Below are positions 3,258-25,266 of a DNA stretch of 37,063 nucleotides, piece after piece (positions within the stretch are counted from its first letter, which is position 1; each line of letters opens with the position of its first letter). Position numbers and translations under genes: made by a program. Where the stretch lies: contig JAOADW010000032.1 in NCBI GenBank assembly GCA_026417115.1, forward strand, positions 1 through 37,063. The letters are read 5' to 3'. The notes beneath the pieces were generated by a model. It had not been told where the DNA came from and ran no database searches. It saw nothing but the letters and a program-made list of their open reading frames with translations. Source of the DNA: Rhodocyclaceae bacterium. Lineage in GTDB: Bacteria > Pseudomonadota > Gammaproteobacteria > Burkholderiales > Rhodocyclaceae.

Positions 3258-4793
3258 ATGACTGATTGGACGGCTGGCTATGTTTCGGAAATCGGCTACA
3301 CCTTTGGTTACTACGCCGAATTGAACCCTCTGCGCCTTACTTTGCCTTTGCTGTGCGCGGGTATCGTGCCGCCACGGGTGGAAACTGCCTGTGAGCTGGG
3401 GTATGGCCAAGGGATGAGCGTCAACATCCATGCCGCTGCATCCACTCAGAGGTGGTGGGCGACCGATTTCAATCCGAGTCAGGCCGGTTTTGCTCAGGAG
3501 CTGGCGAACGCTTCCGGGGCTTCGGCAAGATTGTTCGACGAATCATTTGCAGAATTTTGCGCGCGCTCCGATTTGCCGGATTTCGATTTCATTGGCCTAC
3601 ATGGCATCTGGAGCTGGATTTCGGATGAGAACCGTGCCTTGATCGTCGACTTTGTGCGCAGGAAGCTCAAGGTAGGCGGGGTGCTCTATATCAGCTACAA
3701 CACCCAGCCTGGTTGGGCAGCCATGGTGCCGATGCGCGAGCTTTTGCTCGCTCATGGCGAAGCGCTTGCTGCCAAAGGGCTGGGTATCGTGAGCCGCATT
3801 GATGCGGCCCTCGAGTTTGCTGAAAAACTTTTTGCCACCCTGCCAGCATATATGGCTGCTAATCCGCAAGTGCCGGAACGCATCAAGAAAATGAAGGAGC
3901 AAAATCGGCATTATCTTGCCCATGAATATTTCAATCGCGATTGGCATCCGATGTCGTTTGCAAAGATGGCCGAATGGCTTGCGCCCGCCAAGATGAGCTA
4001 CGCGGCATCCGCCCACTACCTTGATCATGTCGATGCGATCAACCTCTCTGAGGAACAGCAAAACCTGCTCAAGGAGATTCCTGATCCAAATTTTCGCCAG
4101 TTCGTGCGCGATTTCATGGGCAATGTTCAGTTCCGACGCGACTACTGGGTCAAAGGGGCAAGGTCCCCGAATATTTTCGAAAGGAATGATGCCTTACGCG
4201 CACAGCGATTGATCTTGATTACGCCGAGCGAAGATGTGGAATTCAAGGTCTCCGGTAGCCGCGGAGAGGCGACCCTGAATGAAAGCATCTATCGACCGAT
4301 CTTGGAGTTGTTGGCTGATTTCAAGCCACGGAGTTTGAGGGAGATCGAACAGGCTCTTGCGCCCAAAGGGATCGTTTTTGCTCAAGTGCTTCAGGCAATG
4401 TTGATTCTATTGGGGAAAGGGAATGTCGCCATCGTTCAGGATGAGCAAAGCGCAGGGCGTGTCAAGAAGACCTGCGATAGACTCAATCTCCATCTCATGC
4501 ACAAATCCCGCGCCAGTAACGATTATGCTTATCTGGCGAGTCCGGTGACGGGAGGCGGCGTGCTCGTCAACCGTTTCGAACAGCTTTTTCTGCTAGCCAG
4601 AGAGCATGGCCGGAAAATGCCGAACGAGTGGGCTTATTATGCATGGGAGCATCTCCAGGCGCTTGGCCAGCGTCTGATGAAAGAAGGAAAAGCCCTTGAG
4701 ACGACCGAGGAAAACCTCGCCGAGTTGACGCGACAAGCGAAGGCTTTCGCCGACAAAAAATTGCCCGTACTCAGAGCGCTGCAACTTGCATGA
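3258..4793 (+). CDS. PKMT-like class I methyltransferase with regulatory domain
   Basis: A 511-residue cytoplasmic protein. The N-terminal part is an AdoMet-binding fold: YTFGYYAELNPLRLTLPLL, then ELGYGQGMSVNIHAAAS (motif I, around residues 47-63), WATDFNPSQAGFA and the acidic FDFIGLHGIWSWIS. The middle (~200-310) resembles the methyltransferase regulatory domain and the last ~200 residues resemble a winged-helix tail. This layout and length match the rickettsial protein-lysine methyltransferases (about 550 residues) that modify the surface protein OmpB; that is family knowledge, and the substrate here is not shown. Placement ahead of a type I secretion operon suggests a secreted surface protein as target. 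The start is the ATG after AAGGGA. It is separated from the next gene by ~140 bases, so it may be its own transcription unit. Confidence 0.82.
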   Translation: MTDWTAGYVSEIGYTFGYYAELNPLRLTLPLLCAGIVPPRVETACELGYGQGMSVNIHAAASTQRWWATDFNPSQAGFAQELANASGASARLFDESFAEFCARSDLPDFDFIGLHGIWSWISDENRALIVDFVRRKLKVGGVLYISYNTQPGWAAMVPMRELLLAHGEALAAKGLGIVSRIDAALEFAEKLFATLPAYMAANPQVPERIKKMKEQNRHYLAHEYFNRDWHPMSFAKMAEWLAPAKMSYAASAHYLDHVDAINLSEEQQNLLKEIPDPNFRQFVRDFMGNVQFRRDYWVKGARSPNIFERNDALRAQRLILITPSEDVEFKVSGSRGEATLNESIYRPILELLADFKPRSLREIEQALAPKGIVFAQVLQAMLILLGKGNVAIVQDEQSAGRVKKTCDRLNLHLMHKSRASNDYAYLASPVTGGGVLVNRFEQLFLLAREHGRKMPNEWAYYAWEHLQALGQRLMKEGKALETTEENLAELTRQAKAFADKKLPVLRALQLA

Positions 4794-4935
4794 GCAGCAT
4801 TTACGAGGGTTGTGGCACCATGAAGTTTGGCAGCTGCCAAGGTATTGCAAAGGGCGCTATCCCACGAGCGGTTGTCTAGCTCAGCAGCCTGAGGGGGCAC
4901 ACAGACAGTTCTAGTCTATGGTATTATGTTCATAT
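4794..4935. other. Intergenic stretch with palindromes before the TnpB-like gene
   Basis: This 142-base gap holds a perfect 14-base palindrome at 4827-4840 (TTGGCAGCTGCCAA) and a small hairpin at 4880-4893 (CTCAG, loop CAGC, CTGAG). No good -35/-10 pair and no T-tract follow, so neither looks like a standard promoter or terminator. The gap could be a leader with its own RNA structure, an operator, or a decayed end of an IS605-type element if the following gene came from one. Confidence 0.35.
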
Positions 4936-5577
4936 ATGAAATCCAACCTACTCGTTACACTCAACGCGGATGCCCTACAGAAGCAACGCTTGCACGCGCT
5001 GCAATGTCTCTTTGCCAAAGCCTGTAACGAGGTAGCGAGGGTAGTGCAAGAAACTCGGTGCTGGCATCGCGTGACCTTGCATCATTGGGTCTATCGCATG
5101 CTGAGGCAGAGGTTTCCCGAGCTTGGTTCCCAGATGATTTGCAACGCCATCTATTCCGTCTCGCGCACCGCGCGGCTGGTTTTCCAGCATCCTCAAAGCC
5201 CGTGGCACCTTTCCCGGTTGGGGGAGAAGCCACTGCCTTTGTTGCGCTTTACGGACTCGGCGCCAGTTTATTTTGATCGACACACATTGAATGTGCGTCA
5301 AAGCGGCTTGTCGATGTATTCGCTCGATGGTCGGCTTCATTTCGACCTGCAGCTTGCTCCGCTGCAGCTTCGCTCTTTTCGTGAGCAACGCCTGAAGGAA
5401 ATCGTGCTTTTCCGGGAAGGAGAGGAGTATCGGCTTTCTTTTTCCTTCGGTGGCGGGGAAGACGCTTTCAGCGAACAGGTGGCTGGGGAGGCGCCCGAAT
5501 ATGTGTTGGTGATCGAAATGGAACATGAGCGAGCCTTGCATCATGCTGTCAGCTCGATTGCGAAAGAGGCAGCCTGA
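4936..5577 (+). CDS. TnpB-like N-terminal-lobe protein lacking the RuvC nuclease
   Basis: A 213-residue protein I recognise as resembling the front half of IS200/IS605 TnpB proteins. Shared features in order: a leading strand with 'NADALQKQRLHALQ' in place of the usual TxEQ...L start; ACNEVARVVQE (~29-39, TnpB 'ACN.....E'); HHWVYRMLRQRFPELGSQM (~49-67, 'KLVYYxLRExF..L.SQ'); NAIYSVSRTAR; VYFDRHTLNV ('YDDRIL'); SMYSLDGRLHF ('SIWTLDGRLxIPF'); and IVLFREGEEYRLSFSF ('DLVxxDGKFYL'). In TnpB the RuvC motif with its catalytic Asp comes next; here there is only EYVLVIEMEHERA and the protein ends, so RuvC and zinc-ribbon parts are absent. The frame is clean. The stop lies seven bases before the T1SS ATPase, implying co-transcription. 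The ATG at 4918 is an alternative start; neither has a clear ribosome-binding site. Nucleic-acid binding without cleavage is my inference. Confidence 0.65.
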   Translation: MKSNLLVTLNADALQKQRLHALQCLFAKACNEVARVVQETRCWHRVTLHHWVYRMLRQRFPELGSQMICNAIYSVSRTARLVFQHPQSPWHLSRLGEKPLPLLRFTDSAPVYFDRHTLNVRQSGLSMYSLDGRLHFDLQLAPLQLRSFREQRLKEIVLFREGEEYRLSFSFGGGEDAFSEQVAGEAPEYVLVIEMEHERALHHAVSSIAKEAA

Positions 5578-5584
5578 GGAAAAT

Positions 5585-7333
5585 ATGTTTGGAAAACCGA
5601 CTTATCCCCAAAAGACAGGGCTGACAAAGGAATTTCTCGAGGAGGCTAGGGCGCCTATCCGTCGCGCAGCCTTTTTGGGTTTCGTCATAACCGTGTTAGC
5701 GTTGGCGCCATCGTGGTACATGCTCGAGGTGTATGACAGGGTTCTCAATAGCATGAGCTTACCGACTCTGGCGATGCTTACGTTGCTGGTCATGGCGCTT
5801 TATGTTGTCATGGAAATTTTGGAATGGACGCGGGGGGAGCTCTTGCAGAACCTTGGCCTGCTTTTCGAAAAGCGTTACGGGGAGCGGGTGTTTGATGCTG
5901 TCATGCAGGCAAGCTTGCGGCAAGTGCCTGGGGCGATGCAAGGTATCAATGACATGCGCACGTTGCGCGAGTTTTTTTCTGCCCCTGCCCTGACGGCGCT
6001 CCTGGATGCGCCAATGGCAAGCCTTTTCTTACTCTTGCTTTTTTTGATCCATCCTGCCCTGGGTGCATTTGCGCTGCTCTTCGCGCTCGGTCAGGTCTAT
6101 TTGGCATATCAGACCGAGCGAAGCACTCAACCTCCCCTCGTGGAGGCAAACCGTATGGCGATCTCGGCGCAGAACTACGCTCAAGGGACACTGCGGAGCG
6201 CCCAAGTGGTGGAAGCGATGGGCATGCTTCCGGCCATCCTGCAGCGATGGATGAAGCGGCAGAGGCGTTTTCTGGAGTTGCAGGCCTTGGCTTCCGACCG
6301 CGCCGGTAGTCGATCGGCCATTGCCAAGGCCTTGCAAAACATCCTTTCCTCAGGGCTCATGGGACTGGCGGCATGGCTTTTGCTGCAGCAGTCACTGCCG
6401 GGAGGCGGCGCGATGCTGATCATTGCCAGCATTCTTGGCGCACGGGCGATGACGCCACTTGTGCAATTGATTGCGAGTTGGAAACAGGTCGTGGAAGCGC
6501 GGGATGCACGGGATCGCCTAGATAAGTTTTTGCTGGACATGCCAGAACGACCGGCGGGGATGAGTCTGCCTGCGCCTTCCGGCAATCTGAGTGTCGAAGG
6601 GTTAGTCGCATCGGCTCCTGGCAGTCAGATTCCTATCTTACGCGGCTTGTCGTTTGCATTGCCGGCAGGCAAATGCCTCGTTGTGGTTGGCCCGTCAGCT
6701 GCGGGCAAATCCACGCTCGCGCGGCTGCTCGTCGGCGTGTGGCTTCCTATGGCGGGTAAGGTGCGGCTCGACGGCGCGGATATCCACGCTTGGAACAAAA
6801 GCGAGCTTGGCCCCCATATCGGCTATTTGCCTCAGGGGGTAGAGTTGTTCGACGGTACCCTGGCGGAGAACATTGCTCGCTTTGGCGAGATCGATATGAC
6901 AAAGGTAATCGCCGCTGCGCAGCTGGTCGGACTACATGATATGATCATGCAATTGCCAAATGGGTATGAGAGTCGAATTGGCGAGGATGGCTGCATTCTT
7001 TCTGGGGGGCAGCGCCAGCGCGTGGGACTGGCGCGCGCCATCTATGGAGAGCCGAGGTTTCTTGTGCTTGATGAGCCAAATGCTCATCTCGACGAAGAGG
7101 GCGATCGCGCCCTGTTGTCCTGTTTGCTGGAAATGAAGCGCCGTGGGGCGACGCTGGTCGTGATCAGCCACCGTACGAGTGTTTTGCCCGCTGCGGACGC
7201 CATGTTGATTTTACGCGATGGACAGATCACTGCCTTGGGGCCGCGCGACGAGATTTTGGCGGCCCTGGCCAAAGCACAACAACCCTCAGCCACTCCGCCA
7301 GCTCGTGCCGGCTCTATGACGGATCGAACATGA
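5585..7333 (+). CDS. Type I secretion permease/ATPase, first of a tandem pair
   Basis: A 582-residue inner-membrane ABC half-transporter of the PrtD/RsaD group, which powers one-step export of C-terminal-signal proteins (proteases, RTX and S-layer proteins). About 300 residues of membrane domain open with FVITVLALAPSWYMLEVYDR. The ATPase domain has Walker A GPSAAGKST (~369-377), Q-loop YLPQGVELFDGTLAENIARF, signature LSGGQRQR (~472-479), Walker B FLVLDEP (~492-498) and H-loop VVISHR, all intact. I choose the ATG at 5585 because GAGGA lies just upstream; an earlier in-frame ATG at 5525 lies inside the previous gene. It overlaps the second ATPase by four bases. Having two different ABC subunits suggests a heterodimer. 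Confidence 0.93.
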   Translation: MFGKPTYPQKTGLTKEFLEEARAPIRRAAFLGFVITVLALAPSWYMLEVYDRVLNSMSLPTLAMLTLLVMALYVVMEILEWTRGELLQNLGLLFEKRYGERVFDAVMQASLRQVPGAMQGINDMRTLREFFSAPALTALLDAPMASLFLLLLFLIHPALGAFALLFALGQVYLAYQTERSTQPPLVEANRMAISAQNYAQGTLRSAQVVEAMGMLPAILQRWMKRQRRFLELQALASDRAGSRSAIAKALQNILSSGLMGLAAWLLLQQSLPGGGAMLIIASILGARAMTPLVQLIASWKQVVEARDARDRLDKFLLDMPERPAGMSLPAPSGNLSVEGLVASAPGSQIPILRGLSFALPAGKCLVVVGPSAAGKSTLARLLVGVWLPMAGKVRLDGADIHAWNKSELGPHIGYLPQGVELFDGTLAENIARFGEIDMTKVIAAAQLVGLHDMIMQLPNGYESRIGEDGCILSGGQRQRVGLARAIYGEPRFLVLDEPNAHLDEEGDRALLSCLLEMKRRGATLVVISHRTSVLPAADAMLILRDGQITALGPRDEILAALAKAQQPSATPPARAGSMTDRT

Positions 7334-9063
7334 GATCGAAATTCCTATCAACATCGATGCGCTCAGAATTGTCCCGCGTTCTTTTGGCGTTTCGACGGGA
7401 GTTCTGGACGGTAGGGATATTCAGCCTGACGATCAACGTCTTGATGCTGACACCGACGCTCTACATGCTCCAAATCTATGATCGTGTCTTGGTGAGCCAA
7501 AGCGGTCTTACGCTGGTCGCATTGTCGTTGGTGGCTTTGTTCCTTTTCCTCGTCATGGCATTTGCCGAATGGACGCGCTCGCGCATTTTAGTGCGCGCTG
7601 GCGTCTCATTCGATGAGGCACTCAATGTGCGCGTCTTCTCGGCGAGCTTCGACGCCGCCCTAAATCAGAACGGCATGAATCCGCGCCAAGCATTTCTCGA
7701 TTTGACAAACTTGCGTCAGTTCCTGACTGGCAACGGCATTTTTGCGTTTTTTGACGCGCCTTGGACGCCCGTCTATCTCGGCGTGCTCTTTTTGCTCCAC
7801 CCTTATCTAGGTTGGCTAGCAATCATCTTTGCGGCATCGTTGGCAGCGCTGACCTGGCTGGCTCATCGCGCCACGCAGGCAACGACTGCTGAGCTTGTGG
7901 CCACAGCGAAAGATGCGAGTCTTTATTTGCAAAGTAAAGTGCGCAACGCCGAGGTGATCGAGGCAATGGGAATGTCGGGGAATCTGCGCCGTCACTGGCG
8001 CAATCGACAGAACCGCCATTTGTTCGTCGCCGCCAAATCTCAGGAGCTTGGCCGGCGTTGGCAATCTTTGATCAAAGGCATGCGGTATAGCCAGCAGTCA
8101 CTGATGCTCGGCGCTGGCGCTTGGCTTGTGATCGAAGGTGATCTTACCATCGGCGGGATGATCGCGGCGAATGTTTTGATGAGCCGCGCGTTGGCCCCTA
8201 TCGACTTGGTCGCCGCTACATGGAAGAGCTTTATTACGGCAGCTGAGGCCTATCGCTCTCTCACGGCCCTCCTCAGTGAAAACCCGCCCCGCGCAGCGGG
8301 CGAGAGCCATCCCAAACCGACGGGGGCGATGCGTGTGGTCGGCTTGGTAGCAAGCGCGCACGGTCGTGAAAAGCCTATCCTCAACGGCATTGATCTCGAG
8401 TTTTCGCCGGGAACGATGACAGCGATCCTTGGGCCGTCTGGATCTGGCAAGTCAACTTTGGCACGATGTTTAGTGGGGGTTTGGCCGCAATGGCAAGGGC
8501 GCGTCTTACTTGACGGCGTGCCTATAGAAAGGTGGGGGCGTGGCGATTTAGGACCACATATCGGCTATCTGCCGCAAGACGTGGAGCTTTTGGAGGGAAC
8601 GATCGCCGAGAACATTGCGCGCTTTGGCGAAATCAAAGCCGACGAAGTGATACTGGCCGCAAAGCGCGCCGGCATTCATGAGATGATCTTGCGCTTCCCC
8701 ATGGGCTATGACACGCCGATTGGCGAGGGTGGCGCATTTCTCTCTGGCGGGCAACGTCAGCGCGTGGGGCTGGCCCGAGCCATCTACGGTGAGCCAGCCT
8801 TGATTGTGCTTGACGAGCCCAATGCAAACCTTGACGAAGTGGGAGAGGCCGCTTTGCAAGAAACCCTGGCCACGCTTCGACAGTTGGGCAAGACAGTCGT
8901 GCTGATCACTCATCGCCCTGCCGCCTTGGGCCTGGCTGATCGGATCGTACTGCTGTCGGATGGCTGCGTGAAACTGCAAGGCCCACGCGAGGAAGTATTG
9001 GCCCGGCTTTCTGCTTCCCGACCAAACCTGCCGCCGACGACAGTAGCTCCTCAAACCGCATAA
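7330..9063 (+). CDS. Type I secretion permease/ATPase, second of a tandem pair
   Basis: A 577-residue PrtD-type ABC half-transporter overlapping the first by ATGA. The membrane domain begins FSLTINVLMLTPTLYMLQIY. The ATPase has Walker A GPSGSGKST (~368-376), YLPQDVELLEGTIAENIARF, LSGGQRQRVGLARAIYGEP (from ~471), Walker B LIVLDEP and H-loop VLITHR; nothing essential is missing. It is clearly related to its neighbour but diverged along the whole length, so this is an old duplication and not a recent copy. Both ATP sites appear competent, unlike exporters with one degenerate site. The membrane-fusion protein follows 20 bases later. Confidence 0.93.
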   Translation: MRSKFLSTSMRSELSRVLLAFRREFWTVGIFSLTINVLMLTPTLYMLQIYDRVLVSQSGLTLVALSLVALFLFLVMAFAEWTRSRILVRAGVSFDEALNVRVFSASFDAALNQNGMNPRQAFLDLTNLRQFLTGNGIFAFFDAPWTPVYLGVLFLLHPYLGWLAIIFAASLAALTWLAHRATQATTAELVATAKDASLYLQSKVRNAEVIEAMGMSGNLRRHWRNRQNRHLFVAAKSQELGRRWQSLIKGMRYSQQSLMLGAGAWLVIEGDLTIGGMIAANVLMSRALAPIDLVAATWKSFITAAEAYRSLTALLSENPPRAAGESHPKPTGAMRVVGLVASAHGREKPILNGIDLEFSPGTMTAILGPSGSGKSTLARCLVGVWPQWQGRVLLDGVPIERWGRGDLGPHIGYLPQDVELLEGTIAENIARFGEIKADEVILAAKRAGIHEMILRFPMGYDTPIGEGGAFLSGGQRQRVGLARAIYGEPALIVLDEPNANLDEVGEAALQETLATLRQLGKTVVLITHRPAALGLADRIVLLSDGCVKLQGPREEVLARLSASRPNLPPTTVAPQTA

Positions 9064-9083: not shown

Positions 9084-10433
9084 ATGGATACCCAACGCTT
9101 ACCGACCGCTGCCGCAACGAATCCGGCCCTCGAAGGAGAAATTGTTCTACCTACCGACACCCGCAAGCCAATGCGCATCGGCCTTTTGACGCTTGCCCTT
9201 GGATTTGGCGGCTTTCTTGCCTGGGCTGCGCTGGCTCCTCTGGATGAGGGGGTGCCGACCCATGGCATGGTTACTTTGGATACCAAGCGTAAAGCGGTGC
9301 AGCATCAAACAGGCGGCATCGTGAAAGAGGTGCTGGTTCGTGAAGGCGAATGGGTGAAAGAAGGACAGCCGCTGCTCAAGCTCGATGATGCAACGATACA
9401 GGCCTCTTTCGAGGCGAGTCGGCAGAACTATTCGACCCTGCGCGCAATGGAAGGTCGCTTGCAGGCGGAACAGGCAGGGTTGGAAAAGATCGAGTTTCAC
9501 CCTGAACTGGTCGCGATGGCGCAGGAAGACCCCATCATTGCGCGCACGCTAAAGACCCAGGAACAACTTTTCCATTCACGTCGCCAGGCGCTGGCGGCCG
9601 AATTGGCGGCTCTCACCGAGGCCATAGAGGGCCAAAGGGCGGCCGCGCGTGGCTATGAAGGGATGCGTGTCGCGCGAGAGACGCAGCTTGCATTCCTACA
9701 CGAGGATTTGAAAGGGCTGCGCGAATTGGTCAAAGAAGGATACGCACCGCGGAGCCGTCAATCAGAACTTGAGCGCCAGGCTGCCGAGGCGATGGCGGCA
9801 TTGGCTGACATCCAGGCCAATCTGCAGCGCGCACGCACCGCCATTGCTGAGCTGAAAAACCGCCAGCAAGTTCGACTGCAAGAATATCGCAAAGAGGTGG
9901 ATGCCCAACTTGCTGAAGTGCGTCGGCAAGTGGAAGCAGAACGAGAAAAATTCCACGCGATAGCCAACGATCTCGCACGCAGTGTGATTCGCGCGCCTGC
10001 TGAAGGACAAGTGGTTGGCCTTGGCGTGCAAACGGTCGGCGGTGTGATCGCCCCTGGGCAAAAGATCGCCGATGTTGTGCCGGAAAATGATCGCCTCTTG
10101 CTCGAAACACGCATTCCGCCTCATCTCATCGATAGCGCGAAGCAGGGGGAAATTGCCGACGTGCGTTTTTCCACATTTGCCCATTCTCCCCAATTGGTCG
10201 TCGAAGCCAAAATCATTTCGGTGTCGCAGGACCTGCTGATGGAGCCCAATCAGCCGCCTTATTATTTGGCCCGTCTGGAAATCACCGAGCAAGGCATGAA
10301 AAAACTTGGCAAGCGTCAGTTACAGCCTGGCATGCCCGTGGAAGTGATCATCAAAACTGGCGAACGCTCATTGCTGACCTATCTGATGCATCCGCTCATC
10401 AAGCGCATTGCCGCCTCAATGAAGGAGGAATGA
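9084..10433 (+). CDS. HlyD-family periplasmic adaptor of the type I secretion system
   Basis: A 449-residue membrane-fusion protein linking the ABC exporter to the TolC-like channel. One transmembrane segment near residues 31-52 (RIGLLTLALGFGGFLAWAAL) follows a short cytoplasmic tail. Next come a lipoyl-like strand (KRKAVQHQTGGIVKEVLVRE), a long coiled-coil hairpin (about 120-300, rich in Ala, Glu, Arg and Gln) and the returning lipoyl half with VIRAPAEGQVVGLGVQTVGG. The C-terminal barrel holds the family-typical QPGMPVEVIIKTGERSLLTY, and the protein ends with a YLMHPL segment as in PrtE. The length is normal. The stop is one base before the outer-membrane channel gene. Confidence 0.93.
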   Translation: MDTQRLPTAAATNPALEGEIVLPTDTRKPMRIGLLTLALGFGGFLAWAALAPLDEGVPTHGMVTLDTKRKAVQHQTGGIVKEVLVREGEWVKEGQPLLKLDDATIQASFEASRQNYSTLRAMEGRLQAEQAGLEKIEFHPELVAMAQEDPIIARTLKTQEQLFHSRRQALAAELAALTEAIEGQRAAARGYEGMRVARETQLAFLHEDLKGLRELVKEGYAPRSRQSELERQAAEAMAALADIQANLQRARTAIAELKNRQQVRLQEYRKEVDAQLAEVRRQVEAEREKFHAIANDLARSVIRAPAEGQVVGLGVQTVGGVIAPGQKIADVVPENDRLLLETRIPPHLIDSAKQGEIADVRFSTFAHSPQLVVEAKIISVSQDLLMEPNQPPYYLARLEITEQGMKKLGKRQLQPGMPVEVIIKTGERSLLTYLMHPLIKRIAASMKEE

Positions 10434-10434
10434 G

Positions 10435-11790
10435 ATGTCTGCCGTGGCGAGATGCAGACTGGCTATTTTCCTGGCGGGATGGGCAGTAGCATTGACCGCT
10501 TTTGCGATGGATCTTCTTACCGTGTATCGCAAAGCGAGAGAAAACGATGCCAATTATCTCGCGGCCCGCGCGACTGCCGAGGCTGGCCGGGAGCTCCTGC
10601 CCCAAGCACGCGCCGCCCTGTTGCCGAATGTCTCGGCAAGCATGGCGCGCAGCCGCAACAGCACCGATCAACGCATGCAAAGCCTCTTGGGCGCTGATCT
10701 GCATCGGCAGTATGACTACATTGCCGAAAGCCAAGCGCTCACTGTGCGCCAGCCCTTGTTTCGGCCCGCACAATGGGCAGCTTATCGTCAAGCAGAAGCG
10801 AAGGTTGCAGGGGTCGAAGCGGCATTGGCAAAAGAGACTGGAAATTTGGGGTGGCGCGTCACCCAGGCCTATGTCGAAACGTTGGCGGCGCGCGAGCGTC
10901 TGTCGAGTCTGGATAGCCAACGCGAGGCCCTGCAGGCGCAGAGGATGGCAGCAGAACGTGCATTGGCTCTTGGTTTTGGCACGCGAACCGATGTCGACGA
11001 TGCCCAGGCGCGTCTTGACGCCGTCGATGCATTACGGGTGGAAGCTCAGCAACGTTTGCTGGTCGCAGAGCGCCAACTTGCGGCGCTGATAGGAGAGGAA
11101 ATAGCCGCCTCGCGATTGGTGGGTTTGCCGCCAACGCCTGATGGCAGGGAAATGGCGCATAGCGGCACGTTCGAGGAATGGCTCAGCCGCGCCGAAACGG
11201 GCAATGCGGAGCTGAGAGCGCTCGCGGCAGCGGTCGAAGCAGCCGAACACGACCTTGCGCGAAATCGTGCCGGTCACATGCCAACGCTCGATCTTGTCGC
11301 AAGCCGCAGCAAGAGCGATAGCGATAGCAATACCACGATCGGCAGCCGTTATTGGACGAGCAGCATCGGCATCCAGCTGGCCATACCCTTGTATGCGGGC
11401 GGTTATGTCGATTCGACGGTGCGACAAGCAGCGGCAACGTTGGAGTCGGTGCGCCAGCAATACGAAGCGGCACGTCGCCAGCTTGCGGTTGAAGTGGCGA
11501 AAGCATATGCCATGGTAGTGTATGGGCGGGCACGCATTCGCGCCCAAGAACAAGCCGTCCGATCGGCGGAGGAGTCCTTGCGTTCCACGCGCAAAGGCGT
11601 GGAAGCGGGTACGCGCAACCAGGTCGATGTACTTGATGCGCAACAACGATTGAGCAACGCGCGCTATGATCTCTACCAAGCGCGACTCGACCATTTACTC
11701 GGCTGGCTGCGGCTGCGCTATCTTGCCGGTAGCCTGGAAGAAGATGAGATCAGTGAGGCCAATCGCTGGCTCGCTGCACAGAGAAATTAA
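10435..11790 (+). CDS. TolC-family outer-membrane channel of the type I secretion system
   Basis: A 451-residue outer-membrane efflux protein. A signal peptide spans about residues 1-24 (hydrophobic LAIFLAGWAVALTAFA). The body has the duplicated TolC pattern: DLLTVYRKARENDANYLAAR opens the first repeat, LPNVSASMARS leads into a strand, and the second repeat has LARNRAGHMPTLDLVASRSK and GIQLAIPLYAGG, with long helical stretches between. A strong ribosome-binding site, AAGGAGGAATGAG, sits at the end of hlyD. With the two ATPases and the adaptor it completes a dedicated T1SS, so this locus need not borrow a housekeeping TolC. Confidence 0.93.
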   Translation: MSAVARCRLAIFLAGWAVALTAFAMDLLTVYRKARENDANYLAARATAEAGRELLPQARAALLPNVSASMARSRNSTDQRMQSLLGADLHRQYDYIAESQALTVRQPLFRPAQWAAYRQAEAKVAGVEAALAKETGNLGWRVTQAYVETLAARERLSSLDSQREALQAQRMAAERALALGFGTRTDVDDAQARLDAVDALRVEAQQRLLVAERQLAALIGEEIAASRLVGLPPTPDGREMAHSGTFEEWLSRAETGNAELRALAAAVEAAEHDLARNRAGHMPTLDLVASRSKSDSDSNTTIGSRYWTSSIGIQLAIPLYAGGYVDSTVRQAAATLESVRQQYEAARRQLAVEVAKAYAMVVYGRARIRAQEQAVRSAEESLRSTRKGVEAGTRNQVDVLDAQQRLSNARYDLYQARLDHLLGWLRLRYLAGSLEEDEISEANRWLAAQRN

Positions 11791-11796
11791 GCATCG

Positions 11797-13692
11797 ATGT
11801 TGATAAGCACGCGATGGTTGCATGACCGCTTGCCGCCTTCTTGGCGAAGCAGCCTCGTTTTTGCTTTCGATCTGGTGATGGTTCTTGTCGCCTGGGTTAC
11901 GGCGCATGGCGTGCGCCACGATTTCGTTTTGCACGCCGCACCTTCTTCCGTATGGTCGCTTGCCTTGCCTCTTTTGCTGTCTGAGGCGTTGATCTTTCGA
12001 CTCACAGGGCTTTACCGCGGTCTTTGGTATTTTTCCAGTCTGCCGGATTTGGTGAGGATTGCCAAAGGAGTGGCGATTTCGTCTCTTGTGCCCCCGGCAT
12101 TATGGGCTCTAACCCGCGGATGGGATGCCGCCTCACTGTCGGTGGCGATCGCCTACCCCTTGTTTTTACTCGTTTTCATGGCCGGCGGACGCTTTGCATA
12201 TCGGGCTTGGAAAGAACATCGGTTGGTTGGCGAGCTCGGTGCTGGGCGTCGTCCCGTCTTGATCCTCGGTGCAGGACGGGGAGGGGCCAATTTAGCCAAA
12301 GCATTGCATCATTCGCCAGAATGGCGCGTGATGGGATTTCTGGATGATGATCCCGCGAAACGTGATCGAGAGATTCAAGGGCTGCGCGTATGGGGGACGA
12401 TTGCTGAGCTTCCGACTGCGGCTTCCCGTCTCGGGGTTGCGCATGCCATCCTCGCAGTGCCTTCGGCGGACGACGCGACTCGCCAGCGTTTGATCAAGGT
12501 TTGTATGGATGCGGGGGTACGTGCTTACACGGTGCCACCTATCGACCAGCTTCTTTCGGGCCAAGAGCGCCTTGAGCATCTGCGGCCGCTGGCGCTTGAC
12601 GACCTGCTGGGAAGACCGACGGTGGCAATTGACACGGCGCCAGTGCGGGAATTGATTTCTCAACGTGTCGTCATGGTGACGGGTGCCGGCGGGTCGATTG
12701 GTGCGGAACTCGTTCGTCAAATTGCACGCTTCGAGCCGGCACAATTGGTCTTATTCGAGCTCAACGAGTTCGCACTCTATACGATTCATGAGGAGCTGAC
12801 ACAGCGATTTCCGCACTTGACGACCCTAGCCCTTGCTGGCGATGTCAAAGATGCTGCCTGGGTGGGTTATATCCTCCAGCAATACCAGCCGGCGGTGATT
12901 TTTCATGCGGCAGCCTATAAGCACGTGCCTTTGATGGAAAATCACAATGCCTGGCAGGCAATCCGCAACAACGTGCTCGGCACCTATGTGTTGGCGCGCG
13001 CGGCAATCCGAGCCGGTGCTAAAAAATTCGTGCTGGTCTCTACGGATAAAGCGGTGAATCCGGCTAGCGTGATGGGGGCTAGCAAGCGCATGGCGGAAAT
13101 GGTTTGCCAAGCATTGCAAAAGGATGAGCCAGCAACACGCTTCGAGATCGTCCGTTTCGGCAATGTATTGGGGAGCACGGGCAGCGTGATACCCAAATTT
13201 GCTGCGCAAATTCGCCAGGGCGGGCCCGTGACGGTGACCCACCCCGAAATGACGCGGTATTTCATGTCCCTCAATGAAGCGGCACAGCTTGTCTTGCAAG
13301 CAGCTGCCTTGGGTAAAGGGGGGGAAATCTTCGTGCTCGACATGGGAGAGCCGATCAAAATCGTCGATCTGGCGCGGCGCATGATCCAACTTGCCGGCCG
13401 CAATGAGCAGGAAGTGCGCATTGTCTATACGGGTTTGCGCCCGGGTGAGAAATTGCATGAGGAAGTATTGGCTGTGGGCGAAGAAACCCGGCCGACTCAT
13501 CATCCGAAAGTGCGGGTGGCGCGCGCGCGACCCGTCGACCACGCTTGGCTTAGCAAGGTAGTAGAGTGGTTGAGAGGGCCTCCTCGTACCGAGGTCGAAG
13601 CGCGCAGGGATCTGCGCCGTTTCGTGCCTGAATACAATCCGGCGACATTGCCCGAGCTACGCATCGTGCATAGAAACGAAGCAGGCCATTGA
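11797..13692 (+). CDS. Membrane nucleotide-sugar 4,6-dehydratase (CapD/WbpM-like)
   Basis: A 631-residue inner-membrane enzyme. The N-terminal ~150 residues carry about four hydrophobic segments (e.g. [20 protein letters not shown]). A nucleotide-binding-like domain follows ([20 protein letters not shown]), then the catalytic SDR domain with [20 protein letters not shown], the [20 protein letters not shown] segment with Met in the usual Tyr place, as in WbpM and FlaA1, and RPGEKLHEE near the end. The family removes water from UDP-GlcNAc or a related sugar to a 4-keto-6-deoxy form, a precursor of bacillosamine, FucNAc or QuiNAc. Its position six bases behind the secretion channel gene suggests that S-layer export and glycan anchor synthesis are expressed together. 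It overlaps the apaH remnant at TGATG. Confidence 0.9.
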
Positions 13693-14168
13693 TGGCGACT
13701 TACGCGATAGGCGACGTCCAGGGGTGTTTGGCTCCGCTTCTGCAGCTCGTCGAGGCCGTAGATTTCGATCGCCGACGCGATCGGCTATGGTTCGTTGGCG
13801 GTCTCGTCAATCGCGCTCCCGATTCGCTGGGCGTATTGCGTTTCGTGAAAGCCTTGGGCGATGCAGCGGTCGTGACGCTGGGCAATCACGACCTCTCCTT
13901 GATCATGCGCGCGGAAGGATTTGGCAAGGAAAGCGAAGAGGATACGATCGCTTGCTCTAACGGATGCCTCCATGAATGCTGCGATCGACATGCTTTCCCT
14001 GTGCGACGACGCCCAAGAAATTCGTTCCATGCAAGTAGTAGACATCAAAAGGCAACTTCACTTATCCTGAGGCTGGGCAAGAGCCGGCGTGGGGCTTCCT
14101 CGCTCTCGCCGGCCCTGCCGTCGGTCTGGCAAAATGGCGGCAAGGGCGGGCTTTGGCCTGCCGCGTAA
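13692..14168 (+). pseudogene. Broken apaH (diadenosine tetraphosphatase), N-terminal remnant
   Basis: The frame starts [19 protein letters not shown] and runs with clear ApaH similarity for about 83 residues: [43 protein letters not shown]. ApaH hydrolyses Ap4A and is normally about 270-280 residues with a two-metal site. Here the usual GDLVNRGPDS reads [10 protein letters not shown], so a metal-binding Asp is lost. After ~13,935 similarity ends at once and the frame continues as unrelated sequence to a stop at 14,168. Beyond the junction, other frames hold short coding-like stretches. A deletion joining foreign or shifted sequence is the simplest view. No active enzyme is expected. The start overlaps the stop of the dehydratase gene. 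Confidence 0.75.
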
Positions 14169-14259
14169 CGGCTGAAGCCCGGCTGGCAAGGCGGTTTCCA
14201 GCGGTCTTGGTGGTTTCGGGCCATGCGTCCGAGGGAATGGTTTAACGCTTCTGCCCGAT

Positions 14260-15156
14260 ATGGCTGTCGTCGAGAGAGGGACGTTGGGTTGCGCGCACGC
14301 GCAACGGTCATGCTATGCGAATCCATTTTTTGTCTCAGCGCAACGCGCTGAGCGATCGCTTGCCATATCCATCGTTCTTCATCAGCCGGATTTTGGACGC
14401 TTATCCCGCGCCGTAGAGAGCCTGCGTGCGGCTTGTCGTGGCGTCCTTCGGCAGAAAGTGCGCATGCATTTTCGTTTGTTCTTGACGGACCATTCGCGTT
14501 TGCCGCTTGCAGAAGGCCTGCTAGCGGGACTCGAGGCGCGCGCAGGCGAGGAGTTGGCGATCGAGTATTGGCACGATCCCTCCAATCCTGGCTATGGCGC
14601 GGGGAACAACCATGCATTCCAGCGTGCCGGTAAAGCGGATTTTTTTCTCGTTGCCAACCCCGACCTTGAGTTCATGCCCGACAGCCTGCTTGCCGGTTTG
14701 GCATTTTTCGCTGCGCACCCTGATGTTGGGGTGATTGCGCCGGCGCTGATCGAGAATGACGGAAACGTGCGCCCTGCCTGTTTTAGGCCTCCGGACATCC
14801 TGACATTGGCGATGCGTGGCTTGGGATACACCGCCTCAAATTCATCCAGGATCGCGCGCTATGAGTGTCGAGACTGGGAGCCCGAAACGCCGGTGTTCAA
14901 TCCGCCCCTGATGAGCGGCTGCTGCTTATTTTTCCAGGCTGATGCGTTCTTTCGCTTAGGCGGCTTCGATGCAGCCTATTTTCTTTATTTCGAGGATTTC
15001 GACCTTTCTCGGCGGGCGGCGCGCTTGGGAATTTCGGCTTACTGCCCATGGATGCGCGTGCGTCATGCTGGGGGAGGGGCAGCGGCCAAGGGATGGCGGC
15101 ATTGGTGGTGGTACCTTCGTTCGGGTTGGCGGTATTATCGGCAGGCGGGCAGGTAA
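14260..15156 (+). CDS. Family 2 glycosyltransferase (rhamnosyltransferase-like)
   Basis: A cytoplasmic GT2 enzyme of about 290 residues. The GT-A fold shows as LAISIVLHQPDFGRLSRAVE, HDPSNPGYGAGNNHAFQRAG (acceptor/nucleotide loop), FLVANPDLEFMPDSLLAGL with the PDL in place of DxD, LMSGCCLFFQADAFFRLGGF and YFEDFDLSRRA with the ED catalytic-base motif. This set is typical of WbbL-like rhamnosyltransferases, though the sugar is not provable. The start is uncertain: ATG 14260 has no nearby ribosome-binding site, while the in-frame TTG at 14284 follows GAGAGGG closely. It is separated from upstream genes by the apaH scar and precedes the giant fusion gene. Confidence 0.85.
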   Translation: MAVVERGTLGCAHAQRSCYANPFFVSAQRAERSLAISIVLHQPDFGRLSRAVESLRAACRGVLRQKVRMHFRLFLTDHSRLPLAEGLLAGLEARAGEELAIEYWHDPSNPGYGAGNNHAFQRAGKADFFLVANPDLEFMPDSLLAGLAFFAAHPDVGVIAPALIENDGNVRPACFRPPDILTLAMRGLGYTASNSSRIARYECRDWEPETPVFNPPLMSGCCLFFQADAFFRLGGFDAAYFLYFEDFDLSRRAARLGISAYCPWMRVRHAGGGAAAKGWRHWWWYLRSGWRYYRQAGR

Positions 15157-15340
15157 GGCGAGGAAAAAGCGGAGACCACTCATGCTGGCCTGTGAGGGAG
15201 AGCGCTTGTTTCCTTGCGGTGGTTATGCTGGTAAAATAGGGCTGGTCGGTTGCAAGCGCGGCCGACGCCAAGGGGCAGCGCTTTGGGTAGGGCAAAGGGG
15301 CCCTCTGCTGACTCGCCTTTCGTGAAGGAAAACAGGTCAG

Positions 15341-15535
15341 ATGGAAAAGCAAGGACTTGAGCTGCTCGCAGCAATGCTGGAAGCGATGGGTAACAAGTAT
15401 CCCGCCGAGGAGGCAAAGGGGCCCACTCCGCCCCCGCCGCCAGAACTCTCAGAATTTTTCCGGCAAGCTGCATTGCACAACCATGTCGATCCCGTGACGG
15501 GCGAGGTGTTGCCTTCCTCGTCGAACCACCACTGA
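15341..15535 (+). CDS. Small proline-containing hypothetical protein
   Basis: A 64-residue frame starts at an ATG ten bases after GAAGGAA, a good ribosome-binding site. It opens with a helix-like MEKQGLELLAAMLEAMGNKY, has a run of five prolines (PTPPPPP) near residue 30, and ends in HH. I recognise no family. It lies alone in a ~550-base gap between a GT2 gene and the deacetylase fusion. An AT-rich TAAAAT at 15232-15237 could be a -10 box, but no well-spaced -35 was found. It may be a real small cytoplasmic protein; good start context is the main support. The remaining sequence at 15157-15340 and 15536-15703 shows no other convincing gene. Confidence 0.45.
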   Translation: MEKQGLELLAAMLEAMGNKYPAEEAKGPTPPPPPELSEFFRQAALHNHVDPVTGEVLPSSSNHH

Positions 15536-15703
15536 AACATCCCTGCACGAAAACGACGGTCTGCTCATCACCTTACCGCTGCTTGCCGAAGATCGCGCCG
15601 CCCAGTTGGTCTCGGCATGATGGACTGCCGCCGGTGAGGCGTTGGGGAAGAGGATCGCCAAGGCGGGCTTTCTTCCGAGGATGATTCTTTTTTCTTTGCG
15701 TCC

Positions 15704-18700
15704 ATGGCAGCAACAACAGGCGTAGGCAACGGTATCGCCGATGAACGATTCATGCTCGGCGAAACTTTTTCTCTCGGCGCAGTGCGCACGGCGCTGCCTG
15801 ACGTACGCAGGGCGATTTTTTTTGCGCCTCATCCGGACGATGAGATTTTTGGCTGTGCGGGCGCCCTCATGGTATTGCAAGAAATGGGCGTCCATTTGGC
15901 CGTAATCATTGTGACGGATGGCGAGGGTTGTGGGGCAGAGATGCCTCGCGAAGAACTGGCGCGGCTTCGTCGCCGCGAATCGATGGAGGCTTTACGGCTG
16001 TTGGGACTGCCTGCGCCGAATTTTTGGGGCTTGCCCGATCGTGGGCTCTGGCATCAAGAAGATCTGCCGTCGCGCTTGCGAGAAGCGATCGACGAACATG
16101 CGGCCGAGCTTGTTGCTCTTCCTTGGCTGGGAGAAATTCACCCCGACCATCTTGCACTAGCGCGCGCAGGCATTTCTGCGGCGCAAGACGCGCCCAGCGT
16201 GCGCTGGCTGCTGTTCTATGAGATCAGCGCTCCGCTTGTTCATCCCAATCTCTTTTTGTCTCTCGGCGTGCGGGAAGAAAAAAAGCGGCGCGCCATCCAG
16301 TGTTACTCGACCCAGTTGCAGCTGCAGCCATATGCGGAAAGAATAATTGGCCTCAATAGCTATCGGGCCTATCACCTTGGGGCTGAGACGCGGCTTGCAG
16401 AGGCGTATGAGCTTGTCGAGCGCAGTGAGTGGCGCCGCCTAGAAAAGGAAATGACGCAGCCGCTGGCGCGTTATCTATCTATGATTGCGCATCTCGAGAA
16501 AACAGTGCTTACCCAGCAGGCCGCTCTAAGCGAACGAGAGAGAGCGCTCGAACGCGAAAGGCATCGGGTGGAATGGCTGGGGGGACGCATCCGCCGCCTA
16601 GAGGAAACGCTGACGGCGGTCTATGCGAGCCGCTCGTGGCGCATCACGGCGCCGCTGCGGCGCCTTGGACAATTGCTTCGTCTTTTGCGCGCGTTGCCTG
16701 CAGCTGCTCACCGACACGGGGGCGTGGGGAATTTTGCGTTACGCATTTTCTTGCTCTTGCGACGAGAAGGTTGGCGGGGAATCGTTCGACGCCTACGGGC
16801 CCGGCTGGGGTATGCACCAGCGTTTCACCTGTCATATCCCCAGGCGCAAGGAGATATCCCCCGTCCCCTCGCCGTCCCCTGCTATGAGCCTGCGAAGTTG
16901 CTGCCTACGGATTTGGCTTTGCCGCCGCAGCCGCGGCGCATCGCCGTGCACCTGCATCTCTATTACCTCGATCTATTCGATGAGTGTGTTGCTTATCTTG
17001 GCAATGTTCCGCGCCCATTCGATCTGTATGTTTCCACCTCCATGAGCGCGGATGCGGCCGCTCTCGCGTCAAGATTCCGTGAGCGTTTGCCCCATGCAGG
17101 CAAGATCGTAGTCGAAAACACGATCAACCGCGGCCGGGATCTCGCACCGCTGATCGTCCAATTTGGCGCGCGGCTGCGCGAATATCACATCGTAGCGCAT
17201 TTTCACACGAAGAAGAGTCCGCACGATCCGGCGCTTGCTCGCTGGCGCCAGGATGTGTTTGATCTCTTATTGGGTGATGCGGAGCGAATCGAAAAGATCC
17301 TACGGCTCATCCAGGAGGGTGTTGCCAGCGTCGTTTATGCCGAAGCGCCCTTGGCGATACTTGAAGAGTCCCATGCATGGGGCGCCAATCGTGCCATTGC
17401 CGCGGAATTTCTTACCCGCTATGCTGCTTGCTCCATCACGGATTATCCCGTCATCGAGTTTCCGCGCGGTTCCATGTTCTGGGCGAGCAAGGACGCCGTG
17501 CGCAAATTGCTGTCTTTGCCGCTCACTTACCAAGATTTTCCGGGCGAACCGTTGCCGCCCGACGGCTCGCTAGCCCATGCCCTCGAGCGGATCGTGCTCA
17601 TTCTTGCAGAAGACGCGGCGGGAAGGCCATTTCGTCTGCATAAAGGCGATTCCGTGCCAGACTATCGAGAATACGAAGAGGCGCAAGATTTTTCTTCGCT
17701 CCTCGAAGAATGTGATGTCAAGGTGCTGGCTTACTACTTGCCGCAATTTCATCCCATTCCGGAGAATGATCGCTGGCATGGCGAAGGGTTTACGGAGTGG
17801 ACGAAAGTGAGGGCGGCGAATCCTCTCTTCTTTGGTCATTATCAGCAACACATTCCGCATCCCGACATCGGTTATTATCGCCTCGAGGGTCCAGAAACCT
17901 TGCGCAAGCAAGCGCTTATGGCGCGTCGAGCTGGCGTGCACGGGTTCGTTTTCTACCACTATTGGTTTTCTGGCAAGCTGATCCTAGAGAAGCCGGCTCA
18001 AATTCTCCTGGCCCATCCCGACATTGATTTGCCCTACTGCTTTTGTTGGGCCAACGAAAACTGGACGCGTCGTTGGGATGGCAACGAAAGCGAGGTCCTG
18101 CTTGAGCAGCGGTATTCGCAGGAGGATGCGCGCGCCTTCATGCGCTATCTGTTGCCTTTCTTGCGCGATCCGCGCTATCTGCGGGTAGCGGGCAGGCCGA
18201 TGCTGTTTGTCTATCGTCCCGCTTCCCTGCCTCGAGAAATTGATTATCCTGCGATCTGGCGGGAAGAGTGTCGGCTCGCTGGCCTGCCTGAGCCGTACCT
18301 GGTGGCCGTGCTGACGCGTGGCGCCGTGGATCCCCGTCATCATGGCATGGATGCGGGGGTTGAGCGCGTCTTGCATGATTGGACAGGCGGTGCTGTGCGT
18401 GACTGCAAGGAAGCACTGCACGCCTTCCGGCCGCTTACCGGCAGCGTGCTTTCTTATGACGAAGTCGCTGCGCATTATGAAAAGCTGGACGGGCAGCGGA
18501 CATTCGATTATTTCCGCTCCCTTGTGCCCAATTGGGACAATACGGCGCGTTATGACGGGGCGGCCTATTTGCTCCACGGCAGCCGTCCTATGCGTTTCCA
18601 GAGCTGGTTGCACACACTGGTTGAAGACGCTCGCCGCAGATTGCCGGCGGATCGGCGTTTCATATTGATCAACGCTTGGAATGAGTGGGCGGAGGGCGCG

Positions 18701-20161
18701 CATCTTGAGCCAGACAGCCGCTATGGTTATGCCTATTTGAATGCCGTTGGCCGTGCGCTTGGGGACGTGCCTTATCCGACTCTGCCTGCGCCCAAGCGCT
18801 CGATGTCTGACCTCACGCTCCATCTTTCCTGGGCGCAAGACATCCTTGTTTCGCTTCACGCCGACACATCGTTGCGCACCGCCTGGCAACAGGCGCTTGT
18901 ATATTTCTTTGCGCACAAGCCGCTGCGCCTTACGGCCGATTCCTCTCATTTCGAAGTGCAAGACGCCTCAGCGATTGGGCGGCCAGGAAGGGCAGAAGAT
19001 GCCGATTGCATTTTAGGGGTGCGTCGTCTGGCTGTACCCGTGCCTGCTGACGCGCCATGGCTGTGGGAGGGGCTGGTAAGGCTAACGGAAAGTGCAATCG
19101 CCATACCGCTATATGCAGACGGCGACGTTTGGCGGCCAACGGAGAACGATTCGATTACTGCCGCCGAAGCCAGTGCCGCAGCTTGGGTTTGTCAGCCGCG
19201 CAGCGTGCTTCAGCACGGCTATCGGAACATCCGCGCCGTTCCAGACATGTTGGCCTTTCCTTTGCCCAAGCGCGCCGCATCTGCGCCAGAGGTGGCGGTC
19301 GTAGTGCGTTTTCACGAAGGGGGGGATTGGCGTTTCCTCGAGCAAGCCATAGCCTCCGTGCTCGCCATGCACGATTGCCGGCCCAGGCCTTTGATCGCCC
19401 TGCAGTGCGCGAGCGCAGAAAAAGCGCAGGAATGCGAGCGACGCATCGGCCAGCTTGCCAAAGTCTTTGCCGGTGAAGTTCGCTGTGAAATGTACATGCC
19501 CGAGGAAGGGTGCGGTGACCTGCGTGCGCGCATGCTCAATCATTCGCTAACGCGCGTGGATGCCCGCTACGTTGCTTTTCTCGATTATGATGATTTATTG
19601 TTTGCTCACGCCTATGCCTACCTGCTGGATCGCTTGCGCAAGAGCGGCAAGGCGGTGGCTTTCGGTCGTATCTACGATACCTTGGCGGACGCCGCAACCG
19701 GCCGCCTGATTGAGCGCCGCCGCACATACGAGTATGGCACGAGTTATGCAGATTTTCTCAACTGCAACCACACTCCGATCCATGGTTTCTTGCTTGATCT
19801 CGAGCGGCTCGGAACGACGTCTGTCGTCTATTTCGACGACCAATGTTATCTCGAGGACTATTTCCTGACCTTGCAGCTTTTCCGTGCCGACAATGCCGAC
19901 TGGGAAGGACTCAGAGACAATTTCTATATTGGGGATTATCGCCATTTCCTTGGCGGCAATCAGACATTGGCCATCGCAGATGAGAAGGCTCGTAGAGCAG
20001 TCCTCGCGAGCGAAGCCTACCGTCGCTGCGAGGCGCGCATTGATCGGCTCAAGGAGGCGCTGGCACGAGGGGAAGGCGCTCAGATCTTGCTGAATGATGT
20101 GGGCGCGCGGCAAATATTCTTGGGTCAGTCGCTACCGCACAGTGGCGTGATTCATGCCTAA
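15704..20161 (+). CDS. Giant glycan enzyme: PIG-L deacetylase, RgpF-like, WbsX and GT2-like domains
   Basis: A 1485-residue multidomain protein. Residues ~25-240 are a PIG-L/LmbE N-deacetylase: FFAPHPDDEIFGCAG holds the zinc-binding HPDDE and IHPDHLALA the distal His. A coiled coil follows (~250-310, HLEKTVLTQQAALSERERAL). Residues ~400-650 resemble the rhamnan synthesis protein RgpF (HLHLYYLDLFDECVAYL, NTINRGRDLAPLIVQFG, HFHTKKSPH). Residues ~675-1025 match WbsX (VLAYYLPQFHPIPENDRWHG, FCWANENWTRRWDG, NAWNEWAEGAHLEPDSRYGY). The last ~270 residues are GT2-like, with VAVVVRFHEGGDW and FLDYDDLLF carrying DxD. It should deacetylate an amino sugar and add sugars to a surface glycan, probably at the membrane face. 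No ribosome-binding site is clear at 15704; ATG 15752 is an alternative. The stop overlaps the opposing GT2 gene. Confidence 0.85.
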   Translation: MAATTGVGNGIADERFMLGETFSLGAVRTALPDVRRAIFFAPHPDDEIFGCAGALMVLQEMGVHLAVIIVTDGEGCGAEMPREELARLRRRESMEALRLLGLPAPNFWGLPDRGLWHQEDLPSRLREAIDEHAAELVALPWLGEIHPDHLALARAGISAAQDAPSVRWLLFYEISAPLVHPNLFLSLGVREEKKRRAIQCYSTQLQLQPYAERIIGLNSYRAYHLGAETRLAEAYELVERSEWRRLEKEMTQPLARYLSMIAHLEKTVLTQQAALSERERALERERHRVEWLGGRIRRLEETLTAVYASRSWRITAPLRRLGQLLRLLRALPAAAHRHGGVGNFALRIFLLLRREGWRGIVRRLRARLGYAPAFHLSYPQAQGDIPRPLAVPCYEPAKLLPTDLALPPQPRRIAVHLHLYYLDLFDECVAYLGNVPRPFDLYVSTSMSADAAALASRFRERLPHAGKIVVENTINRGRDLAPLIVQFGARLREYHIVAHFHTKKSPHDPALARWRQDVFDLLLGDAERIEKILRLIQEGVASVVYAEAPLAILEESHAWGANRAIAAEFLTRYAACSITDYPVIEFPRGSMFWASKDAVRKLLSLPLTYQDFPGEPLPPDGSLAHALERIVLILAEDAAGRPFRLHKGDSVPDYREYEEAQDFSSLLEECDVKVLAYYLPQFHPIPENDRWHGEGFTEWTKVRAANPLFFGHYQQHIPHPDIGYYRLEGPETLRKQALMARRAGVHGFVFYHYWFSGKLILEKPAQILLAHPDIDLPYCFCWANENWTRRWDGNESEVLLEQRYSQEDARAFMRYLLPFLRDPRYLRVAGRPMLFVYRPASLPREIDYPAIWREECRLAGLPEPYLVAVLTRGAVDPRHHGMDAGVERVLHDWTGGAVRDCKEALHAFRPLTGSVLSYDEVAAHYEKLDGQRTFDYFRSLVPNWDNTARYDGAAYLLHGSRPMRFQSWLHTLVEDARRRLPADRRFILINAWNEWAEGAHLEPDSRYGYAYLNAVGRALGDVPYPTLPAPKRSMSDLTLHLSWAQDILVSLHADTSLRTAWQQALVYFFAHKPLRLTADSSHFEVQDASAIGRPGRAEDADCILGVRRLAVPVPADAPWLWEGLVRLTESAIAIPLYADGDVWRPTENDSITAAEASAAAWVCQPRSVLQHGYRNIRAVPDMLAFPLPKRAASAPEVAVVVRFHEGGDWRFLEQAIASVLAMHDCRPRPLIALQCASAEKAQECERRIGQLAKVFAGEVRCEMYMPEEGCGDLRARMLNHSLTRVDARYVAFLDYDDLLFAHAYAYLLDRLRKSGKAVAFGRIYDTLADAATGRLIERRRTYEYGTSYADFLNCNHTPIHGFLLDLERLGTTSVVYFDDQCYLEDYFLTLQLFRADNADWEGLRDNFYIGDYRHFLGGNQTLAIADEKARRAVLASEAYRRCEARIDRLKEALARGEGAQILLNDVGARQIFLGQSLPHSGVIHA

Positions 20162-23299: not shown

Positions 23300-23319
23300 T
23301 GCACGCGTCGCGAGAAAGT

Positions 23320-25259: not shown

Positions 25260-25266
25260 GAAACCG

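Follow-up and report, generated by a model that had tools for sequence, protein, structure and literature searches.

A TnpB front half without RuvC as a probable guide-free autoregulator of a type I secretion operon

We analysed a stretch of 37,063 nucleotides from a Rhodocyclaceae bacterium (contig JAOADW010000032.1 of assembly GCA_026417115.1), hereafter the window, in which a gene for a protein of 213 residues directly precedes a type I secretion system (T1SS) operon. The protein is the front (WED/REC) half of a TnpB and lacks the RuvC nuclease domain. It belongs to a conserved and domesticated family of short TnpB front halves, which is not a transposon remnant. From sequence comparisons, we consider it likely that these proteins are guide-free, DNA-binding autoregulators of the secretion operon. 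A domesticated TnpB front half had already been suggested in an earlier sequence-only reading of the window. The main clue to the mechanism is a feature absent from that reading: a near-palindromic putative operator at the promoter of the gene.

The window protein is a TnpB without its nuclease domain

The gene and its product were characterized by the reading frame, homology, an AlphaFold2 model and Foldseek:

4936-5577, + strand: nuclease-less TnpB-derived protein of 213 amino acids (WED strand 1, REC helices, remaining WED; no RuvC)

The frame is clean, as previously described: its stop codon (TGA, 5575-5577) is followed by seven bases and then by the likely ATG (5585) of the first secretion ATPase. 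Genome G079 encodes TnpBs in frames of 427-439 codons, with which residues 12-156 share 35% identity (best E 9.5e-17). In an alignment of nine short homologues the mean column identity is 55%, and 28 positions stay invariant once a full-length TnpB joins it. The AlphaFold2 model (predicted local distance difference test, pLDDT, of 85; predicted TM-score, pTM, of 0.81) shows a single strand, then three long helices, then several strands in succession. ISDra2 TnpB has the same WED-REC-WED order, with WED at residues 1-12 and 117-176 and REC at 13-116 (PMC10097598, accessible part). Foldseek retrieved 21 matches in the PDB at E <= 0.001, all of them to Cas12f, TnpB or Cas12k (best 2.7e-6), including ISDra2 TnpB (8exa, E 2.4e-5). 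Since the query-normalised TM-scores of these matches are moderate (0.38-0.60) and several root-mean-square deviations are large, they speak for membership in the fold family and not for a close superposition. The matches to full TnpBs in sequence and to TnpB and Cas12f in structure thus both confirm the WED and REC domains.

The nuclease domain is absent rather than dead, as the sequence-only reading had argued. The window protein stops where a RuvC domain with its D-E-D residues would start, and none of the 45 tails of the short homologues described below has a GIDxG-type RuvC motif. Family databases add little: Pfam returned only DUF6956, in a match (E 0.009) that falls short of its cut-off, and NCBIfam had no match to the window protein. 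A sequence profile of the short family gave zero matches in the PDB; when one full TnpB row was added it gave 8, every one to the RuvC part. The front part of the protein is basic (isoelectric point of 10.0), and the protein has one match in its own assembly, which is 87% complete.

Short homologues are conserved and always linked to secretion ATPases

Profile searches detected strong short homologues in 35 of the 395 genomes of the family set, with 7 more among the 399 of the order set and one among the 369 of the class set. Together with two contigs from metagenome-assembled genomes (MAGs), the loci from these searches make up the 45 analysed here, counted among the matches listed. We left out full-length or fragmentary TnpBs (G287, G152, G441, G486, G079, G540, G617 and G071), weak matches in G1090 and G840, and weak profile matches to about positions 12-80 in many family genomes, which correspond to separate proteins of 80-130 residues or to longer frames (13 loci). 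All 45 proteins are distinct and free of internal stops, and their length is near-constant at 194-227 residues; lengths and starts are nominal, e.g. the assigned start of G310 (L053) lacks a start codon. The dN/dS ratios (non-synonymous over synonymous substitutions) of the 25 closest pairs lie between 0.03 and 0.23: the family is under purifying selection.

A homologue of the PrtD-type ATPases of the window lies downstream, on the same strand, in 45 of 45 loci, so that the survey proposed in the sequence-only reading shows the pairing to be conserved. No such ATPase follows the full-length or partial TnpBs at the four loci whose downstream side is visible (L090, L092, L093 and L103; at L094 this side is cut by the contig end). 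In a tree of the common region (65 rows, 173 columns), the 45 fall on one side of a single branch among full-length TnpBs (support 93/50, 92% of bootstraps).

A near-palindromic site covers the start of the gene

Two features of the window, of which the first was identified by motif scans, define the proposed regulatory region:

4929-4940, no strand: perfect palindrome TTCATATATGAA, the proposed operator, which covers the start codon and is the sole copy in the assembly
4922-4927, + strand: candidate -10 element TATTAT, with the start codon 8 bases downstream

TATTAT is probably the -10 element of the window promoter, and because the start codon comes 8 bases past it, the messenger RNA (mRNA) is probably leaderless or nearly so. 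Across the family, the near-palindromic 12-mer TTCATATAGGA occurs with at most one mismatch within 200 bp upstream of the nominal start in 42 of the 45 loci, where composition shuffles average 0.115. Its TCATATA positions are identical in all 82 site readings (palindromes counted on both strands), a constancy that arises partly by construction, as sites were picked at one mismatch or less. The start codon itself is covered (-7 to +5) in 31 of the 45 loci, mostly as TCCTATATGAA. Among these 31 loci a -10-like hexamer lies most often at -13 (15 loci), a position that suggests leaderless or nearly leaderless mRNAs in the family at large. G061 probably starts upstream of its nominal start, at an in-frame ATG that lies under the right-hand site.

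A second site is frequent, near -32 to -35. The arrangements are diverse: convergent (15 loci), tandem reverse (7), tandem forward (4), single forward (4), single palindrome (4), three sites (4), others (4) and none (3). The perfect palindrome TTCATATATGAA is found in the window genome (G000) and in G056, G657 and G1075, with no second site at the same threshold, and these four genomes are spread over three distinct positions of the tree. A site is lacking at G488, G527 and G532, the only loci among the 45 with a same-strand tolC-like gene upstream (searched in a flank of 1.5 kb for most loci). In G488 and G527, two exact tandem copies of the site, 16 bp apart, lie about 80-180 bp before the projected tolC start. 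At L039 (G293), the departures from the motif are clustered near one and the same end in all three upstream sites (one TTCATATAGTA, two TTCATATAAGA), possibly a co-varied operator variant.

The site is also specific. In 12 gene-positive genomes, 15 of the 16 exact copies of TTCATATAGGA are at the promoter of the front-half gene, whereas 8 genomes without a strong homologue have 2 copies, both within mechanically called open reading frames (ORFs); a reversed-pattern control gave 6 copies over all 20 genomes. In all four palindromic genomes, TTCATATATGAA is confined to a single place, the start of this gene, and its single occurrence in the window compares with none in 100 shuffles. Among the 30 best orthologous ATPase loci, the motif occurs within 1.2 kb upstream of the ATPase in 13 of 13 with the gene and in 0 of 17 without it. 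Hence, the gene co-occurs with a specific site at its own promoter, as would a DNA-binding autoregulator.

Full-length relatives carry the same site

We examined twelve distinct standalone relatives, i.e. tnpB genes with no tnpA directly upstream as judged by eye (L090, L092, L166, L167, L168, L170, L173-L177 and L229; L169 duplicates L168). Ten of them have the full set of three RuvC-type motif strings; L166 is truncated by a contig end and L229 lacks the EDLT string. L090 matches guided_TnpB (NF040570) with 181 bits, for a cut-off of 100. The site, at one mismatch or less, lies over the start in 9 of the 12. Because such full-length relatives carry it, the site is probably older than the loss of RuvC, and its presence suggests that active tnpB genes are themselves autoregulated. 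The individual loci L166-L170, L173-L175, L177 and L090 show a standalone tnpB with TCCTATATGAA, or a close variant, over its start codon, several of them behind a -10-like hexamer. The guides of mobile TnpBs derive from the flank of each insertion, and so should vary between copies. A constant site therefore argues that it is read by the protein and not by a guide. Promoters of tnpB genes do not carry the site in general: in viral contigs, the promoter pattern without coding bases had mostly chance matches, at least 120 in number, and among the 120 listed it coincides with a TnpB start at 4 (two of them copies); the pattern with coding bases does so at 4 of 18.

Proposed mechanism and alternatives

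In TnpB, WED and REC form a cleft that holds the duplex of the transposon-associated motif (TAM), and it is mainly WED and RuvC that bind the RNA scaffold (PMC10097598, accessible part). Removal of RuvC would therefore take away much of the RNA seat and keep the DNA cleft. We propose that an ancestor of the lineages concerned, which include an Azonexus MAG, captured the nuclease-intact TnpB of an IS605-type element in front of a T1SS operon, and that this TnpB then lost its RuvC half and its mobility while retaining the WED/REC lobe and its own promoter site. The front-half protein would bind TTCATATAGGA or TTCATATATGAA directly, free of guide RNA, perhaps as a dimer recognizing two half-sites. 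As these sites overlap either the presumed start point or the -35/-10 spacer of the shared promoter, the protein would most probably repress its own secretion operon until a signal relieves the repression. We hold this sign less firmly than guide-free autoregulation as such: repression is the most likely outcome and activation is possible. More generally, we lean slightly towards the view that the WED/REC lobe alone is a guide-free, sequence-specific DNA reader, with which the active TnpBs of the clade would repress their own leaderless promoters, and that this module was freed as a new family of transcription factors.

Several observations weigh against this reading. Direct binding, repression, RNA independence and leaderless mRNAs are all deduced from sequence. 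The contrast between 13/13 and 0/17 ATPase loci (Fisher exact test, 8e-9) ignores kinship. The gene-positive genomes G000 and G056 have only the palindrome and no exact TTCATATAGGA, six loci with asymmetric sites carry a single copy, and G532 has upstream of tolC only TTCATATATGCA, which is one mismatch from the palindrome and could be there by chance. Among the standalone relatives, L229 has two mismatches, L092 has three (by eye) and L176 has no site with up to two. The four tnpBs that immediately follow a tnpA (L178, adjacent by annotation, and L024, L103 and L171, adjacent by eye) lack a site even when two mismatches are allowed. The likely TAM of the clade, read by eye from the GTTTAC element ends, differs from the site, so that the cleft would need to read another sequence. 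Finally, the branch of the 45 has a Shimodaira-Hasegawa-like approximate likelihood ratio test (SH-aLRT) support of only 50, and its placement is weakened by the adjoining, very long row L172.

The alternatives differ in what they make of the site. The protein could be an RNA-guided repressor similar to TldR, with TTCAT as the TAM and ATAGGA as the seed of a short guide, supplied by an RNA whose gene lies at some other place in the genome. The motif does open with a TAM-like TTCAT, and the exapted TnpBs known as TldR are RNA-guided repressors with a seed of nucleotides 1-6 (PMC13418256, accessible part). We nevertheless find this quite unlikely, in part because the RuvC surface that holds much of the scaffold is absent (PMC10097598, accessible part). 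The ATAGGA half is, moreover, replaced by the perfect palindrome in four genomes. Neither Rfam (no match in the window at the gathering threshold) nor RNA-structure prediction at the gene end (no conserved structure predicted from the 14 of the 45 loci used, a weak test as these are poorly alignable) revealed a guide RNA next to the gene; no search for a distant one was made. With a single match in the assembly and the ATPase starting seven bases past the stop, the locus also does not look like a mobile element with a 3' guide RNA. The same site is found across several families and at full-length TnpBs, whose guides are expected to vary. The RNA partner envisaged in the sequence-only reading is thus not supported. 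It is unlikely, too, that the motif is owned by another regulator and that the TnpB-derived protein has a different role in the operon, e.g. binding of its mRNA. Binding of the motif by this protein is our deduction, which leaves room for such a regulator, but in the tested gene-positive genomes the motif hardly occurs outside this promoter, and it is missing from all 17 gene-negative ATPase loci and occurs at the starts of related tnpBs, where a third-party regulator would not be expected.

Control might instead act on the RNA, with the inverted repeat folding into an mRNA hairpin that hides the start codon, protein-bound or not. Exactly one convergent pair is indeed present in 15 of the 45 loci, with the right arm mostly over the start codon. 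The tandem reverse, tandem forward and single-palindrome loci cannot make this hairpin, which rules it out as the common function, and the -10-like hexamers lie mostly between the arms, so that the left arm would not be transcribed; we give this explanation very little credence. Even less, practically none, goes to a decayed transposon remnant with chance linkage. The protein does derive from TnpB, but such a remnant is refuted by the invariable linkage, the near-constant length without internal stops, dN/dS well below 1 and the conserved site. Domestication, as put forward in the sequence-only reading, therefore stands: structural matches to TnpB were found and the homologues are not random remnants.

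Relation to known systems

Guide-free autoregulation by a TnpB front half would resemble TldR in its origin from TnpB, the lack of nuclease activity and the exaptation to promoters of non-transposon genes; here the motif is tied to the presence of the gene, which may control the promoter. In TldR, RuvC is mutated and a guide RNA is present (PMC13418256, accessible part), whereas in the window family the domain is absent instead of dead, no guide turned up, and the protein's own promoter carries a fixed, near-palindromic site. The IS605-type TnpBs of the L090/L167 clade share the WED/REC half with the window family and have the TCCTATATGAA-like site at the start codon in 9 of 12 standalone copies, but keep RuvC and a zinc ribbon (by their motifs, in 10 of 12) and are not followed by a secretion ATPase at the four judgeable loci. 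Cas12f and Cas12m share the WED/REC fold family, and Cas12m silences by binding and not by cutting (from partly accessible sources); they differ in being RNA-guided CRISPR effectors with RuvC. To our knowledge, every exapted TnpB regulator (TldR) has retained both a guide RNA and a dead nuclease. A literature search of partial result listings, outside the primary papers on TldR and TnpB diversity, returned no family of RuvC-less TnpB regulators and no regulator of TnpB origin for a PrtD-type T1SS, and the motif string appeared only in three papers on other subjects.

If true, a conserved RuvC-less family with a fixed operator would mean that the front lobe of type V effectors is able to read DNA on its own. 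It would provide a small, testable model of DNA recognition by TnpB and Cas12 prior to guide pairing and hint that active tnpB genes, too, are autoregulated, which had not been suspected. A set of type I secretion operons would gain a named regulator and operator. Such a family would also trace a path from an RNA-guided nuclease to a protein-read operator, in the reverse direction to that of TldR and Cas12.

The secretion operon and its surroundings

Downstream of the front-half gene, the window encodes:

5585-7333, + strand: first PrtD-type T1SS permease/ATPase (longest ORF 5525-7333; TIGR01842, 624 bits, cut-off 510)
7330-9063, + strand: second PrtD-type T1SS permease/ATPase (TIGR01842, 673 bits)
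9084-10433, + strand: HlyD-family T1SS adaptor (TIGR01843, 348 bits)
10435-11790, + strand: TolC-family outer membrane channel (TIGR01844, 305 bits)

The ATG at 5585 is the likely start of the first ATPase. With two PrtD ATPases, HlyD and TolC in a single operon, and TIGR01842, TIGR01843 and TIGR01844 each above cut-off, this is a PrtD-type T1SS. The sequence-only reading had cast the protein as a regulator of S-layer secretion. The promoter site makes the regulatory role likely, but the S-layer cargo has no support: neighbours vary among the loci examined, and in the window a polysaccharide cluster follows. Among the genes tested there (11797-25418) are polysaccharide genes encoding Polysacc_synt_2, WbsX, RgpF and glycosyltransferases.

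Small proteins similar to the REC helices only (conserved part of about 80-90 residues) are found in many family genomes (L025:8232-8492, + strand; L209:3887-4135, - strand; L210-L220). Their identification as DUF6956 was dropped, as the 3 tested had no Pfam match. Several adjoin genes recognized by eye as phosphoribulokinase, transketolase and GAPDH. Upstream of the front-half gene, the window encodes a methyltransferase with a MethyTransf_Reg domain (3258-4793), and a relative of it (60% identity) is likewise upstream of the homologous gene in G013 (L019).
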